NCBI GenBank assembly: GCA_030447385.1
Contig: JAUJOY010000001.1
Coordinates: 466,565 to 530,564 of the forward strand
Direction of reading: 5' to 3'
DNA from: Mycobacteriales bacterium
GTDB lineage: Bacteria > Actinomycetota > Actinomycetes > Mycobacteriales > SCTD01
Length of the DNA stretch: 64,000 nt
The stretch's first letter is position 1; the number at the start of each line of letters is the position of its first letter. Below the pieces are notes generated by a model, which saw only the letters and a list, made by a program, of their open reading frames with translations, was not told the origin of the DNA and did no database searches. Position numbers and translations under genes: made by a program. Positions 2 through 6,593 of the stretch are shown one piece after another.

Positions 2-655
2 GCGGCGCACCAGCTGCGTACGCCGATGGCCGGGATCCGGGCGTGCGCCGAGACGCTGCTGCGCGGAGCGGGACCCGAGGACGGGGACCGGCTGCTGGCC
101 ACGATGGTGCGTGAGACCTCACGAGCGGCGCGCTTGATCTCGTCGTTGCTGCAGATCGCGCGGCTCGATCAGGGACTGCCGACGCCGGTCGCCCAGGTGG
201 ACGTCGTGCGGCTGTGCGCCGAGGAGGTGGAGCGGCTGAGCCTGCTGTCCCCGGACCTGGACGTCGTGCTGGAGGTGCGGCGCGCGCCCGGCGGACCGCT
301 GCTGCTCGACGGCGGCGGCTGTCAGGAGATCCTCAGCAACCTGGGGGACAACGCCCGGCGGCACGCCGTCTCACGCATCCGGGTGGTGGTGGACGCGGGG
401 CCGTCGATGGTGCGGGTCGTCGTGGCGGAGGACGGTCCGGGAGTCGCCGAGGACGCTCGCGAGCAGGTGTTCGCCCGCTTCGTCAGCCTGGACGGGCGCG
501 GCGGGTCCGGGCTCGGGCTGCCGATCGCGCGGTCGCTCGCCCGGTCGATGGGCGGCGAGCTGAGTTACGAGGACGGCTTCGTGCTGGAGCTGCCCGTCGG
601 GGCCGCTCAGGCCACGCTGGAGGGGAACACCCTGTCGAGAGCCGGCTCCTCGTAG
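2..655 (+). CDS. Sensor histidine kinase, C-terminal part (5' truncated by window edge)
   Basis: The reading frame is open from the first bases and opens with the dimerisation H-box (AAHQLRTPMAGIR), whose phospho-accepting His is encoded at 8-10. The HATPase domain follows: N-box NLGDNARRHA, G1 box EDGPGV and G2 box GSGLGLPIARS. The sensor and membrane part lies outside the window, as presumably does the cognate response regulator. The protein should autophosphorylate on His and signal to an OmpR-type regulator. Its last 49 bp overlap tail-to-tail with the convergent receiver-like gene. Family assignment is secure; the stimulus is unknown. Confidence 0.9.
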   Translation, partial: AAHQLRTPMAGIRACAETLLRGAGPEDGDRLLATMVRETSRAARLISSLLQIARLDQGLPTPVAQVDVVRLCAEEVERLSLLSPDLDVVLEVRRAPGGPLLLDGGGCQEILSNLGDNARRHAVSRIRVVVDAGPSMVRVVVAEDGPGVAEDAREQVFARFVSLDGRGGSGLGLPIARSLARSMGGELSYEDGFVLELPVGAAQATLEGNTLSRAGSS

Positions 656-1062
656 CTGCGCTGGGCGACCACCGCTGCCATGGAGGCGTGCCAGCGCCGG
701 CTGACCGCCAGGAGCACGGCCTGCAGCGCCTGCGGGTCGTCCTCGGACACCAGTGCAAGTGCCCCGGCCTCGCGCGCGGCGAGCTCGAGGCTGCCAAAGG
801 CGGAGAGCAGGATCAGCTCCGTGGCGGGAGCCGCGGCGCGCAGCCTGGTGACGGCCGAGAGCCCGCTCATGCCGGGGGTAGGCAGGGTGACGATGGCCAC
901 CGTCGGTGCGGTGCGCAGGACCAGGTCGCGCAGCTCGTCGTAGTGCCAAACCTCGCCGCCCACCGAGAAGCCGCTGCGGGTGAGCAGGCTGGTGACCGTC
1001 CGGCGCAGGGCCGGGCGGTCGTCGCACACGACGCCAGTCGGCGTAGTACTGGTGCTGCTCAT
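607..1062 (-). CDS. Receiver-like protein lacking the phospho-acceptor aspartate
   Basis: A 151-aa protein from the ATG beginning MSSTSTTPTG. It has a CheY-like fold pattern: VVCDDRPALRRTVTSLL near the N-terminus supplies the acidic pair, and LILLSAF is the expected beta-4 strand with the usual Ser/Thr position. The beta-3 motif reads VAIVTLPTPGMSGL, so the Asp that is normally phosphorylated is Thr; the switch Lys is not evident either. No DNA-binding output domain follows; about 30 residues of tail remain. It is convergent with the histidine kinase and divergent from the GH3 gene. It is probably a phosphorylation-independent or pseudo-receiver. A longer in-frame start exists at 1179 but runs through the phased repeats, so 1062 is preferred. 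Confidence 0.7.
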   Translation of the reverse strand: MSSTSTTPTGVVCDDRPALRRTVTSLLTRSGFSVGGEVWHYDELRDLVLRTAPTVAIVTLPTPGMSGLSAVTRLRAAAPATELILLSAFGSLELAAREAGALALVSEDDPQALQAVLLAVSRRWHASMAAVVAQRSYEEPALDRVFPSSVA

Positions 1063-1084
1063 GCACTGAAAGTGACAGGCGCTC

Positions 1085-1117
1085 CTGAAGATCGGCTGAG
1101 GATGGGCTGAAGATTGG
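1085..1117. promoter_or_regulatory. Three 11-bp phased direct repeats (CTGARGATNGG), probable response-regulator site
   Basis: CTGA occurs at 1085, 1096 and 1107, exactly 11 bp apart, within units reading CTGAAGATCGG, CTGAGGATGGG and CTGAAGATTGG. On the other strand the core is ATCYTCAG. The array lies between the divergent receiver-like gene (1062, minus) and the GH3 gene (1188, plus). One-turn phasing of direct repeats is typical of OmpR/PhoB-family regulator binding. The same core with the same spacing recurs at 3439-3481. Confidence 0.6.
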
Positions 1118-1187
1118 ATGTGGATGGCAGCGGCGTGCCGGGGTATGCCCACGATGCGTCCGGGATGTCCCTGACACACTGCCGTTC

Positions 1188-2558
1188 GTGAAGCGCCTTC
1201 TCGCTGTGCTGGTGTCCGCAGTGGTGGTGGGCACCGGCCTCGCCGGGCCGTCGCAGGCTGCGGGACCCAGCGGTGATCCAGCTGGCTGGACCGACCGCCA
1301 GCTGGCTCTGCGGCTCGTCATGGCGGGGTACGACATGAACCGCACGGCTGCCGCCCTGCCCCTCGTACGCGAGGGGTTGGGCGGGGTGCTGCTGTTCGGT
1401 CGCCCACCGGCTGATCTCGGGGAGCGTCTGGCGGCGCTGCGGACCGGGGGTGGCCCTTCGCCCCTGGTCGCCTCGGACGAGGAGGGCGGGCAGGTGCAGC
1501 GCCTCGCCGGTCCCCTCCCGAGGCTGCCCTCTGCGGCGTCGATCGCGCGTACGCGATCGCCGGCGGAGTCGCGCCTGCTCGCCGCGGACTACGGCCGGCA
1601 GATGCGGGCGCTCGGGGTGGACGTGAGCTTCGCCCCGGTCGTCGACATCGCCGTGCCCGGTCAGTACATCGCCGACACCGGGCGTGCCTACTCGGGCGAC
1701 CCGGCGAAGGTGGCGGCGTACGCGGGCGCCTGGCAGGCCGGACTCCGTGACGCCCAGGTGGTGCCGGTCGCCAAGCACTGGCCTGGCCACGGCTCGGCCG
1801 CCAACACGCACAACTCGGCGGCCCAGACCCCGCCGCTGGCCGCGCTGGAGCAGCGGGACCTGCGGCCGTTCTCCGCGCTGCTCGAGGCGGGGGTCCCGGC
1901 CGTGATGGTCGGGCACCTGAACGTCCCGGGGCTGACCGAGCCGGGCCTGCCGGCCACGCTCTCCCCGGCCGCCTACCGCTACCTGCGGGAGCGGGCCGGC
2001 CCGGGGCGGCTGCTGATCACCGACTCGCTGTCCATGGGCGCCATCACGACCGGGCTGCGGCTGAGCCCCGGACAGGCCGCGGTGCGGGCCCTGCGGGCGG
2101 GGGCGGACATGGTCCTGGTGGACAGCGGACCGGGTCCGCCGGTGACGGCCATCAGCCGGGCGCTGGCGGACGGGTCGTACCCGCGGGCGGCCGCGGTGGC
2201 CTCGGCGCGACGGGTGCTGGCGGTCAGCAGGCCCGGTACCCCGTCGGCGGTCGTGGCCCCGCCTGCGGCCGCAGCCCCGAGGCCGGTCACGCCGCCGGTC
2301 CAGGTGCAGCCCGCGCCGGTGCCTCCGCCGCCGGCGCCTGCGCCTCCGGTCGCTGCGCCAGCCGGTCTTCCCGCCCTTCCTCCGCCTGCCCCGGCGGTGC
2401 GGAGGAAGATCCCCGTGGTGCGTGATCCGGACGCGCCGCAGACGGTGGAGCTGGGGCCGGCGCGGTCGTTGCGCGTCGAGGACCTTTGCGGCTGCGGAGG
2501 TGGCGAAGCCCTGCCTGGATCGGACTCCGGCAGCGGGCCTGCGCGCGAGCCGGCGTGA
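1188..2558 (+). CDS. Secreted glycoside hydrolase family 3 (NagZ-like beta-N-acetylhexosaminidase)
   Basis: A 456-aa protein from a GTG start, with a signal peptide (MKRLLAVLVSAVVVGTGLAG, cleavage near SQA-AG). The GH3 core spans about residues 35-340. Visible motifs are SDEEGG, VSFAPVVDI, the substrate loop KHWPGHG and the nucleophile strand LITDSLSMGAI with Asp. The canonical NagZ acid/base loop DxH reads NTHN here, so the exact chemistry may differ. Residues 355-420 are a Pro/Ala-rich linker and the C-terminus is short and Cys-containing. The secreted location and family suggest peptidoglycan or chitooligosaccharide trimming outside the cell. The promoter region carries the phased repeats at 1085-1117, so it is probably controlled by the neighbouring two-component system. 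Confidence 0.85.
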   Translation: MKRLLAVLVSAVVVGTGLAGPSQAAGPSGDPAGWTDRQLALRLVMAGYDMNRTAAALPLVREGLGGVLLFGRPPADLGERLAALRTGGGPSPLVASDEEGGQVQRLAGPLPRLPSAASIARTRSPAESRLLAADYGRQMRALGVDVSFAPVVDIAVPGQYIADTGRAYSGDPAKVAAYAGAWQAGLRDAQVVPVAKHWPGHGSAANTHNSAAQTPPLAALEQRDLRPFSALLEAGVPAVMVGHLNVPGLTEPGLPATLSPAAYRYLRERAGPGRLLITDSLSMGAITTGLRLSPGQAAVRALRAGADMVLVDSGPGPPVTAISRALADGSYPRAAAVASARRVLAVSRPGTPSAVVAPPAAAAPRPVTPPVQVQPAPVPPPPAPAPPVAAPAGLPALPPPAPAVRRKIPVVRDPDAPQTVELGPARSLRVEDLCGCGGGEALPGSDSGSGPAREPA

Positions 2559-2581
2559 GCTGCTGCGTCGGCCGGCGCCGC

Positions 2582-2587
2582 TAGCCT
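2582..2587 (+). promoter_or_regulatory. Putative -10 (TAGCCT) for leaderless purS transcript
   Basis: TAGCCT ends 7 bp before the purS ATG at 2595, with no Shine-Dalgarno in between. The same hexamer at the same distance occurs before purQ, purL and an ArsR gene in this window. That spacing would place transcription initiation on the start codon. Confidence 0.5.
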
Positions 2588-2594
2588 GGCGAGC

Positions 2595-2843
2595 ATGCCC
2601 TCGTACGCGGTCGTGGTCGACGTGATGCTCAAGCCGGAGATCCTGGACCCGGCGGGGCAGGCGGTCCTCAACGCGCTGCCCTCGCTGGGCCTGCCGCCGG
2701 TGACGACGCTGCGGATCGGCAAGCACGTGGAGCTGTCGGTGGAGGCTGCGGACGAGCCCGCCGCGCTCGAGCAGGCCACGAAGATGGCCGAGGTGCTGCT
2801 CGCCAACCCGGTGATCGAGGACTTCCGCGTACGCCTCGGGTGA
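2595..2843 (+). CDS. purS: Phosphoribosylformylglycinamidine synthase subunit PurS
   Basis: An 82-aa protein with the whole PurS fold: YAVVVDVMLKPEILDPAGQAV at the start, the central LRIGKHVEL strand, and the C-terminal LANPVIEDFRVRL. PurS bridges PurQ (glutaminase) and the short form of PurL in the fourth step of de novo IMP synthesis. Length and motifs match the family. It is separated from purQ by about 3.9 kb holding an anti-sigma-type ATPase and a large secreted protein, whereas in most actinobacteria purS, purQ and purL are adjacent. It appears to have its own leaderless promoter. Confidence 0.95.
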   Translation: MPSYAVVVDVMLKPEILDPAGQAVLNALPSLGLPPVTTLRIGKHVELSVEAADEPAALEQATKMAEVLLANPVIEDFRVRLG

Positions 2844-2894
2844 CGCCTGGTCGCTCACGGCATCAGGTCGGCCGCCGCGGGTAGGTCCGCATGC

Positions 2895-3389
2895 ATGGAG
2901 ATCAAGCTGACGCTGGCGTTGCCGCGGGACGCGTTCTCCGTACCGGTGGCGAGGCGGGTGCTGGCGGGCGCGCTGCGCTCGCTCGGCGTCCAGGAACTTG
3001 CGGTCACCGACATCGAGGTCGCCCTTACCGAGGCGGCGACCAACGTCCTCGACCACGCGCACACGACGGATCAGTACGAGGTGTCTGCCGGCATCTCCGG
3101 CAACCTCTGTGTCATCGAGGTCATCGACCGCGGTGCCGGCTTCGACAGCAGCTCGCTGGGGCTGGCGGACGCCGAGGACGGCGCGGAGGAGGGGCGGGGC
3201 ATCCAGCTCATGCGGGCGCTTGTCGACCGGGTCACCTTCACCAGCCGTCCCCAGGTGGGGACGATCGTGCACCTGGAGAAGGAATTCGCGTTCACGCAGG
3301 GGTCGACGCTCGAGCGGCTTGCTGTGAGCCGGGGGGCGGACAGGGCGGGGACGGGCACGGGCCCGGACAGCGTGGCGGCTCGTCCCTAG
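2895..3389 (+). CDS. Anti-sigma-factor-type ATP-binding protein (RsbW/HATPase_c_2 family)
   Basis: A 164-aa protein. Residues 1-135 form a GHKL ATPase of the serine-kinase anti-sigma type: N-box EVALTEAATNVLDHAH, G1 box EVIDRGAGFD, and EEGRGIQLMRALVD as the G2 region. The last 30 residues are a disordered Gly/Ala/Asp-rich tail. Such proteins bind a sigma factor or phosphorylate a STAS antagonist. No sigma factor or STAS gene is adjacent, although STAS genes lie at 51.7-52.5 kb. It sits 50 bp after purS and may be co-transcribed; a functional link to purine synthesis is not implied. Confidence 0.8.
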   Translation: MEIKLTLALPRDAFSVPVARRVLAGALRSLGVQELAVTDIEVALTEAATNVLDHAHTTDQYEVSAGISGNLCVIEVIDRGAGFDSSSLGLADAEDGAEEGRGIQLMRALVDRVTFTSRPQVGTIVHLEKEFAFTQGSTLERLAVSRGADRAGTGTGPDSVAARP

Positions 3390-3438
3390 CGGCGGGCCGG
3401 CTGCTCGGCATGGCGGCCCCAGCTTCCGGGCGGCTGGT

Positions 3439-3481
3439 TCTTCAGCCGATCTTCAGGTCATCCTCAGTCCCTCCTCAGGTT
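3439..3481 (+). promoter_or_regulatory. Four 11-bp phased repeats (YTCAG) upstream of the secreted repeat protein
   Basis: TCAG starts at 3442, 3453, 3464 and 3475, a strict 11-bp period, in the context CTTCAGCCG, CTTCAGGTC, CCTCAGTCC and CCTCAGGTT. The core equals the reverse complement of the array at 1085-1117. It lies 65-107 bp upstream of the start at 3546, a position that suits activation by an OmpR-family regulator. Confidence 0.6.
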
Positions 3482-3545
3482 CCGACGCGAACCTTCGGGT
3501 CAACGTCGTCCGGTGCGGCCGACCTTGACCCGAGAAGAGACGCTC

Positions 3546-6500
3546 ATGCAGCGCAACAGCACAGCACTCGGCGCGCTCGGCGCCCTTCTCTGCGGTGGCC
3601 TCGTCGCCGCCGCGGTTCCGGCCTACGCCGCCGAGCTCGTAACGGCCGAGCTCGTCGGCACGCAGAACGTGGTCGAGGTCGAGCAGGGCAAGTCCGCCGA
3701 CTTCACGATCACGCTCAGCGCGACCGGCAATGCCGCCTGCGGCTCGACCTCGACGGCCAAGGTCAAGCACGCCTTCACCCTCTCCGACACGGGCGCCATC
3801 AGCACCGGGTCAGGGTTCTCGGCCGCCGTCAACTTCTCGGCCCCCGGAACCGCCAAGGGCAATTGCGACATCGTGCGCAGCGGCGACGGGGTGCGGAGCG
3901 CCAGCGTGAGCGCGGCATCCACCACCGCGCTCGGCGATTACAAGATCCTGCTCGGTGAGAAGTCGGGCACCACAGAAGTCACCAACAGCAACACCTCGGG
4001 CGGCAAGCTCGAAGACACGACGGCTACCACCGTCACGTTCAAGGTCGTCGCGCCGGTCGTGGTCAACCAGGCGCCTGCCTCCGGCAACACCCCCCATAAC
4101 GCGAGCGGCGAGGAGGGGAGCGCGCTCCAGACCTCCGGCTCCTTCACCGACGCTGACGGTGACCTCGCCAGCATCATGGTGACCAGCGGTGAGGGCGTGG
4201 TGACGGCTCACAAGGACACATCTGGCGCCCTGACCGGCTCCTGGTCCTGGTCCCTGCCGACCGCGGACAACGTGAGCGGCAGCGTCACCGTGACCGCGAC
4301 CGACTCCCACAACGCCACCGCCACCCAGAGCTTCAGCTACGCCGCCGCCAACGCCGCCCCGCGGATCGCGGCTTCGGCCGGCGGTGCGCACGGCCTCGAG
4401 GGCGGCACCCTCAGGACAAGCGGCGCCTTCACCGACGTCAGCGGCGACGTGCCGCTGGCCATCACCAAGCTCTCCGGCGACGGCGACGTCCTCGCCAAGG
4501 CCGACGGCACCTGGTCCTGGAGCCTGGCCACCACGAACGAGACCAGCGGCACCGTGCAGGTGCAGGCCGACGACGGTGACCGTGGCGTCACGGTCGACAC
4601 CTTCACCTTCACCGCCGACAACGTCGCCCCCGGCGTGCGCACCGACGCGCAGGACGTCGAGGGCGACGAGGGCAGCATGCTCGGCAACGCCGGCGCGTTC
4701 TCCGACGTCCCCGCCGACACGCTCACCGTCAGCCACACCGGGGACGGCACCTTCACCCAGACGAGCGACGACGGCGCCTGGTTGTGGAGCGTCGTCGGTG
4801 CGGACAACGCCACAGGCCAGATCTCGGTCACCGCCTCGGACGGCACCGCCACCAGCACCCCGGACACCTTCACCTACACCATCCTCAACGTCGCCCCGGC
4901 AGTGGCAGTGGCAGCGAACAACGCCAGCGGCGACGAGGGCACCACGCTGACCACCAGCGGCCGCTTCAGCGACGTCAGCACCGACCCGCTGACGATCACC
5001 GTGCTCTCCGGCCCCGGCGAGGTCCTCGGCAACAGCGACGGCACCTGGTCCTGGAGCTTCGCCGGCACCGACGACCTGACCGAGCAGGTTGTCGTGCAGG
5101 CCGATGACGGCGACGGAGGCAAGACCACCGACACCTTCAACGTCCGTGTCGACAACCTCGCCCCGACGGTCTTGGTCTCGGCGCAGCCCGCCACCGGCAG
5201 TGAGGGGAACACCCTCGCCACGTCCGGCGCCTTCACGGACGTGCCGGCAGACACCATCACCATCACCTCAGACGGCGGCGTCCTCCTGGACAAAGGCGAC
5301 GGCACCTGGTCGTGGAGCCTGGCCACCACCGACCAGACCAGCGGCACGGTGATCGTGACCGCCACGGACGACAACGGCGACACGGTCACCGACACCTTCA
5401 CCTACGAGGCCAGCAACGTGGCACCCCAGGTCACGGTCGAAGCCGTGAACCAGAACGGCGCCGAGGGCGACACCCTCATCGCCTCCGGCAGCTTCCAGGA
5501 CGTGGCGGCCGACAACATCACCGTCTCCCAGACGAGTGGCCCCGGCACGGTGACCGACCTGGGCAGCGGCAAGTGGACCTACACCCTGACCACGACCGAC
5601 CAGATCACCGCCACCGTCGAAGTCACCGCCACCGACAAGGACGGCGCCAGCACCAGCGACGAGTTCACCGTCACCGCCATCAACGTCGCGCCGGCCGTTG
5701 GGACCGCGCCGGCGAACTCGAGCGGCTCCGAGGGCGGGACGCTCACCACGTCCGGCTCCTTCACCGACGTGCCGGCGGACCCGATCACCCTCACCAAGAC
5801 AGGTGACGGCACTCTCGTCGACAACCGCGACGGCACCTGGTCGTGGAGCCTGGCCACAACCGACGACGCCAGCGGGTCGGTGACCGTCACGGCCGACGAC
5901 GGCGACGGCGGCAAGACGACCTCGACGTTCACCTACGCGGCAGGGAACGTGGCCCCGACCATCAGTGCCCTGTCCGTCACCGGGATCACGGGCGCAGCCT
6001 GCACCACCGGCAACGCGGTCGGCCTCAAGTTCACCGTCACCGACCCCGGCTCGGCGGACACCATGACCGGGACGATCAACTGGGGTGACGGCAGCAGCAG
6101 CGAGGCGTTCACCAGCCGCTCGGTGCACACGAGCCACGCCTACGCCGCCGGCAGCTACACCATCACGGTCAACGTCTCCGACGACGACGGCGGCGCGGCC
6201 GCTCCCCAGAGCGCGCTCGTTGTCCTGAACTACGCCCTCGGTGCCATCCAGACGCCTTTCAACGTCGACGGGACGTCTGTCTTCAAGTACGGCAGCACCG
6301 TCCCGGTCAAGGTGCGCATCACCGACTGCGCGGGTGCCCCCGTGCCCGGCCTGGCACCGACCATCAAGGTGGCCCTGGCCAGCTCGGCGACGCCCAGCAC
6401 CGCGATCAACGAGACGGTCGACTCCACCAGTGCGGCGGACACCACGGGCGTGCTCCGCTATGACGCGACCGCAGGGCATTACATCTACAACATGGCGACC

Positions 6501-6593
6501 AAGTCGCTTCCCGATGGTGACGGCAAGTACGTCGTCACGGTCGCGAACGGTGGCACGCAGGTGACGCAGAAGTTCGGCCTCCGCACCAAGTAG
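3546..6593 (+). CDS. Large secreted protein with seven Ig-like repeats, a PKD domain and a C-terminal module
   Basis: A 1015-aa protein. The ATG at 3546 is preceded by GAGAAGAG at a suitable distance and opens a clean signal peptide (MQRNSTALGALGALLCGG, cleavage near AYA-AE). Residues 20-170 form a unique N-terminal domain with two Cys. Residues about 174-801 hold seven repeats of about 90 aa, each with EG(S/G/T)xLxTSGxFxDV, a DGTWSWSL strand and a final TFTYxxxN. A PKD-like domain follows (INWGDGSSS), then a C-terminal domain with FKYGSTVPVKVRITDC, a module I have seen at the ends of actinobacterial surface proteins. No LPXTG motif, hydrophobic tail or S-layer-homology domain is seen, so it is probably released or held non-covalently. 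Role unknown; adhesion or matrix is plausible. Confidence 0.85.
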   Translation: MQRNSTALGALGALLCGGLVAAAVPAYAAELVTAELVGTQNVVEVEQGKSADFTITLSATGNAACGSTSTAKVKHAFTLSDTGAISTGSGFSAAVNFSAPGTAKGNCDIVRSGDGVRSASVSAASTTALGDYKILLGEKSGTTEVTNSNTSGGKLEDTTATTVTFKVVAPVVVNQAPASGNTPHNASGEEGSALQTSGSFTDADGDLASIMVTSGEGVVTAHKDTSGALTGSWSWSLPTADNVSGSVTVTATDSHNATATQSFSYAAANAAPRIAASAGGAHGLEGGTLRTSGAFTDVSGDVPLAITKLSGDGDVLAKADGTWSWSLATTNETSGTVQVQADDGDRGVTVDTFTFTADNVAPGVRTDAQDVEGDEGSMLGNAGAFSDVPADTLTVSHTGDGTFTQTSDDGAWLWSVVGADNATGQISVTASDGTATSTPDTFTYTILNVAPAVAVAANNASGDEGTTLTTSGRFSDVSTDPLTITVLSGPGEVLGNSDGTWSWSFAGTDDLTEQVVVQADDGDGGKTTDTFNVRVDNLAPTVLVSAQPATGSEGNTLATSGAFTDVPADTITITSDGGVLLDKGDGTWSWSLATTDQTSGTVIVTATDDNGDTVTDTFTYEASNVAPQVTVEAVNQNGAEGDTLIASGSFQDVAADNITVSQTSGPGTVTDLGSGKWTYTLTTTDQITATVEVTATDKDGASTSDEFTVTAINVAPAVGTAPANSSGSEGGTLTTSGSFTDVPADPITLTKTGDGTLVDNRDGTWSWSLATTDDASGSVTVTADDGDGGKTTSTFTYAAGNVAPTISALSVTGITGAACTTGNAVGLKFTVTDPGSADTMTGTINWGDGSSSEAFTSRSVHTSHAYAAGSYTITVNVSDDDGGAAAPQSALVVLNYALGAIQTPFNVDGTSVFKYGSTVPVKVRITDCAGAPVPGLAPTIKVALASSATPSTAINETVDSTSAADTTGVLRYDATAGHYIYNMATKSLPDGDGKYVVTVANGGTQVTQKFGLRTK
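4065..5948 (+). repeat. Seven tandem protein-coding repeats of about 270 bp
   Basis: Seven in-frame units of about 87-96 codons lie inside the secreted protein gene. Unit borders fall at the recurring N-(V/A/L)AP motif. Units share the DGTWSWSL, SGxFxDV and DTFTY motifs but differ in the first strands, so they look like old duplications still under selection. Units 2, 4, 5 and 7 are the most alike. Confidence 0.8.

Follow-up and report, generated by a model that had tools for sequence, protein, structure and literature searches.

The window analysed here is a stretch of 64,000 nucleotides (G000:C9:466565-530564) from a host genome of 3.4 Mb (G000). It opens with the end of a histidine kinase gene, which is followed by the convergent gene of a Response_reg-family protein, a GH3 hydrolase-like gene and the gene of a large predicted secreted protein (Table 1). 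The kinase, which is composed of HAMP, two PAS, HisKA and HATPase_c domains, comes after the gene of an OmpR-family regulator. The original prediction regarded this kinase as truncated, but its gene was found to be interrupted by a scaffold gap of 100 N just before the window (G000:C9:466410-466564), and positions 1-55 of the window duplicate the 55-bp end that precedes the gap. Because of the 100 N and the duplicated end, we read the split as an assembly break; the gene is not truncated. The combination of a receiver and Trans_reg_C regulator with a partner histidine kinase is the make-up of an OmpR/PhoB-type system, and direct repeats one helical turn apart, which are also expected of such systems, were found in the target promoters.

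Table 1. Coordinates of the genes, arrays and promoter elements at the locus and of the arrays found elsewhere in the host genome
Feature	Position	Strand	Remarks
OmpR-family regulator (Response_reg receiver and Trans_reg_C winged helix)	G000:C9:464207-464884		upstream of window
Partner histidine kinase, C-terminal part (HisKA-HATPase)	window 2..655	+	start upstream of window
Pseudo-receiver protein, 151 aa, Response_reg family	window 607..1062	-	
Inferred -10 element CACTTT of pseudo-receiver gene	window 1069..1074	-	10 bp after last unit
YTCAG array before pseudo-receiver gene	window 1085..1111	-	three units, 11-bp period; CTGA at 1085, 1096 and 1107
GH3 beta-N-acetylhexosaminidase-like protein	window 1188..2558	+	neighbour, not supported as target
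YTCAG array before Ig-repeat secreted protein	window 3441..3478	+	four units, 11-bp period; TCAG at 3442, 3453, 3464 and 3475
Inferred -10 element GAACCT for Ig-repeat protein	window 3489..3494	+	10 bp after last unit
Predicted secreted protein, 1015 aa, bacterial Ig/cadherin-like repeats, C-terminal PxKF domain	window 3546..6593	+	
YTCAG array outside window	C1:236856-236893		G000 genome scan
YTCAG array outside window	C9:464127-464164		G000 genome scan

Two arrays of the word YTCAG are present in the window. All seven CTGA and TCAG positions that had been noted were recovered at their 11-bp phasing, as was the opposite orientation of the two arrays, and their direct repeats agree with the OmpR-family type that had been proposed. 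The pattern YTCAG(N6 YTCAG)x2 gave 3 matches in the window against 0 in 100 dinucleotide shuffles. There are 120 YTCAG words in the window and, at spacings from 6 to 30, they were observed to form three-unit chains at a spacing of 11 only. When the whole genome was searched for at least three units 11 bp apart, 7 matches were obtained which fall into four arrays, with 0 matches in the reversed control. One of the two arrays outside the window lies between the OmpR-family regulator and the divergent gene of a 667-aa protein, and the other precedes a VanY-type peptidase gene. Allowing one mismatch returned the four arrays and one weak site (control 0). Within the arrays, the six bases between the YTCAG words vary and the words alone recur. 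Two-unit matches amounted to 19 in all in G000 against 3 in the control; the eight that lie outside the arrays fall within or next to genes, where a promoter role is not evident, and were excluded from the regulon.

The promoter geometry was examined in 54 promoters, which were selected by their repeats alone and not by a -10 element, and which were aligned on the last unit. An A at base 12 together with a T at base 16 after YTCAG was observed in 32 of the 54 promoters and the same pattern one base further in 9, while other offsets gave a mean of 0.75 and a maximum of 3. Taken within one base of the expected offset, nAnnnT occurs in 40/54 promoters. Some of the 14 promoters that lack it there end in a degenerate unit, and the pattern returns after this unit; degenerate last units likewise occur within the clade of the regulator itself, with the -10 register kept. 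We read the pattern as a putative -10 element, nAnnnT, which starts 10 bp after the unit, so that the unit pair would lie over the -35 region. All four arrays of G000 have nAnnnT exactly 10 bp after the last unit, and a search for the composite of array and -10 element gave 4 matches, which are these four arrays (control 0). The geometry fixes the direction of the arrays, and they point to the pseudo-receiver, the Ig-repeat secreted protein, the 667-aa secreted protein and the VanY-type peptidase.

The gene before which the three-unit array is located had been described as a receiver-like member of the regulon. It is supported here as a likely target, and its product is, as judged from its residues, a phospho-dead pseudo-receiver and not an ordinary regulator. 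In the window protein, the phospho-acceptor Asp is replaced by Thr and the conserved Lys is lost. Among five aligned pseudo-receiver sequences, the Asp is absent in four and the Lys in all five. The structural model of the protein shows a receiver fold with a mean pLDDT of 86.5. The ATG is only 6 bp past CACTTT and therefore the mRNA is probably leaderless. In another family, relatives of this protein adjoin the kinase in the genomes G111 and G212, and arrays precede two pseudo-receiver-like genes in G002.

The other targets have an envelope theme, as was originally proposed. The giant secreted protein of that proposal, which is the Ig-repeat protein, is likely to be a target given the direction of its array and its -10 element, and the VanY-type peptidase (-10 element GAGAGT) and a second secreted protein now join the set. 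The latter is the 667-aa protein, which has a signal-peptide-like start and the -10 element CAAGAT. Arrays also occur before the VanY orthologue in G003 and before several secreted proteins in G002, and a five-unit array precedes a collagen-like secreted protein in G005. In genomes of other families, the gene that diverges from the regulator gene mostly encodes a protein that looks secreted. The genes in these other genomes are simple ORF calls, which leaves some gene starts and some small genes uncertain.

The GH3 hydrolase, which had also been placed in the regulon, could not be retained. Its intergenic region is common to the pseudo-receiver gene, and the array runs in the opposite direction, facing away from GH3. 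Moreover, no array immediately precedes the copies of GH3 in G002, G005 and G006. The sequence CACACT (window 1175-1188), which is -10-like, lies a few bases upstream of the GH3 start codon GTG, and suggests that the GH3 mRNA may be leaderless with its own promoter. An RsbW-like HATPase gene (window 2895-3389) was noticed in the purine cluster right after purS, and G005 retains the gene order purC, GH3, purS, RsbW-like HATPase gene, purQ.

Relatives of the regulator were drawn from 397 genomes of the order and the best-scoring 30 loci, own genome included, were used. An 11-bp CTGAR/YTCAG pair was found no farther than 300 bp before the regulator gene in 26 of these 30 best-scoring loci, which contain 45 pairs at a spacing of 11 bp and no more than 2 at each of the other spacings between 6 and 40. 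A pair was also found at 13 of 21 more distant regulator loci. Twenty of these were picked by hand from the relatives of the 397 genomes and one is from Cryobacterium (L144), a useful relative among the matches listed in a genome-contig scan. By comparison, 3 of 21 other OmpR-type loci have a YTCAG pair, and two of the three belong to the MprA-type clade. No pair faces the regulator gene itself in G000, which makes autoregulation less clear in this genome; in G005 and G002, the promoter of the regulator gene likewise lacks a pair. The array at the regulator of G008 faces a site where no divergent gene was found, and no clear gene was found at the pair on contig C272 of this genome.

The strict motif CTTCAGN5CYTCAG was counted in 21 regulator-bearing genomes chosen by hand, 17 of them outside the genus, and gave 44 matches against 8 in the reversed control. 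In the 17 genomes outside the genus, 19 of the 22 strict matches are no more than 5 kb away from the regulator gene. In 61 relatives, the nine genomes with an orthologue (G000, G002, G005, G008, G036, G041, G044, G053 and G060) gave 26 matches against 4 in the control, whereas the other 52 gave 26 against 23. Only in genomes with the regulator does the motif rise above background. As a separate observation, three CTTCAG pairs are located within 700 bp in G034 (G034:C1:4392902-4393608), in which no close orthologue of the regulator was found. Arrays were found at orthologues in related genomes, in favour of the prediction, namely at the regulator locus, before VanY in G003 and before the pseudo-receivers in G002. 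Three-unit matches in other genomes were excluded from this support where they are plain tandem repeats or do not lie upstream of a gene. Together the comparative data support a regulon of the adjacent OmpR-family regulator, and the two-component system that had been predicted to control the arrays is their most likely owner.

Among the closest known systems is MprAB, which shares an OmpR-family regulator and the theme of envelope stress. In the mycobacterial genome G030, CTCAG pairs 11 bp apart with nAnnnT 10 bp on were found before an MprA-type regulator and a PepD-like protease (positions 2076-2091 and 4326-4341 of L303, G030:C1:4931500-4937500); the names MprA, MprB and PepD in this genome are our assumption from gene order. 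The box is therefore of a known kind, as MprA-type loci have CTCAG pairs with an equal -10 distance. However, the window regulator belongs to a separate clade, both clades being well supported, and its units are mostly TTCAG and not CTCAG as in the MprA-type loci. The window system also differs in that no PepD/HtrA protease gene is adjacent to the kinase, in its arrays of up to four units and in the adjoining pseudo-receiver gene. The MprA box was reportedly published by He and Zahrt in 2005; a C. glutamicum MprA motif was compared as well and differs from the YTCAG repeats. PrrA of M. tuberculosis (1ys6) is the nearest solved structure to the window regulator by sequence (3e-58; 2e-135 for the PrrA of G030). 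The PrrA genes of two genomes (L062 and L063), however, are outside the clade of the window regulator and no YTCAG pair was found upstream of them.

Pho boxes are also repeats with an 11-bp period, with a GTTCACC core in S. coelicolor and TCACAGC-n4-TCACAGC in M. tuberculosis (PMC9019756). The period of these Streptomyces and mycobacterial PhoP boxes is alike but the repeated word differs, since the core of the arrays is YTCAG and the GTTCACC core is not found in them. The CutR box, TAWATAAA (PMC12802291), is absent from the arrays. In a structural model, tandem PhoB dimers on direct repeats that span the -35 region contact sigma and alpha (PMC3348028), and the likeness to this type of activation is one of geometry only. 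A literature search at title level found no published account of a YTCAG/CTTCAG box code for this regulator. The principle is familiar from Pho boxes and MprA-type loci; the regulator clade, the code and the target set are new.

We consider it very probable that the arrays act as operator-promoters for the two-component system at the window start, the kinase of which ends at position 655. This kinase would phosphorylate the OmpR-family regulator, and the protomers of the regulator would bind head to tail on the 11-bp YTCAG repeats covering the -35 region. Bound regulator would then place RNA polymerase on nAnnnT exactly 10 bp downstream, and in G000 this would switch the genes for the pseudo-receiver, the Ig-repeat protein, the 667-aa secreted protein and the VanY-type peptidase. 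The arrays, their geometry, the families of the target proteins and the association with the regulator clade are computed; binding by the regulator, its phosphorylation, activation over repression and the signal are what we infer. OmpR-family regulators can activate or repress, and the repeats overlap the expected site of sigma region 4, so that the regulator could bind the boxes and yet repress some or all of the promoters by covering the -35 region. This is unlikely, as the rigid 10-bp distance across genes and families would fit activation through contact with RNA polymerase, whereas a repressor would tolerate other positions.

It is less likely still that a different regulator, for example an orthologue of MprA or an activator of the SARP type, owns the boxes and that their place beside this system is incidental. 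The near-identical box, the CTCAG pairs and the equal -10 distance at MprA-type loci of related genomes would agree with such an owner, and G003 and G023 carry arrays although no orthologue of the regulator was detected in their assemblies, which are 87% and 75% complete. Against this, the motif exceeds its control only in regulator-bearing genomes and its matches outside the genus cluster at the regulator gene, while in G000 the box with its -10 element occurs at the four arrays only, and there is no box at the regulator locus C9:236728. SARP activators likewise recognise direct repeats with an 11-bp spacing near the -10 element, but the distance of these repeats to it is given as 8 bp (PMC10936776), whereas here 10 bp separate the end of the YTCAG word from the -10 element. 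That the arrays have no function, being either chance or simple tandem repeats, has a negligible probability: the same pattern does match plain tandem repeats elsewhere, for example in contig C120 of G019, but this reading is refuted by the absence of matches in the shuffles and genome controls, by the retention of arrays at orthologues and by the recurrence of YTCAG words while the six intervening bases differ.

The proposed control by the adjacent two-component system provides a promoter code, made up of site, spacing, direction and -10 element, by which sequence alone suffices to list the targets of a regulator clade that is uncharacterised and occurs in several actinobacterial families. 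It names envelope targets and ties the pseudo-receiver to a two-component system, and the comparison with G030 points to a wider YTCAG class that would include the MprA-type boxes. A more speculative possibility, which we hold only tentatively, is a three-part module in which the kinase and regulator would switch on a leaderless phospho-dead receiver that feeds back on both, with arrays of three to five boxes steepening the response of large secreted wall proteins. If the code is true, then YTCAG, 6 bp, YTCAG, 10 bp and nAnnnT would make the regulon readable from sequence across several actinobacterial families.
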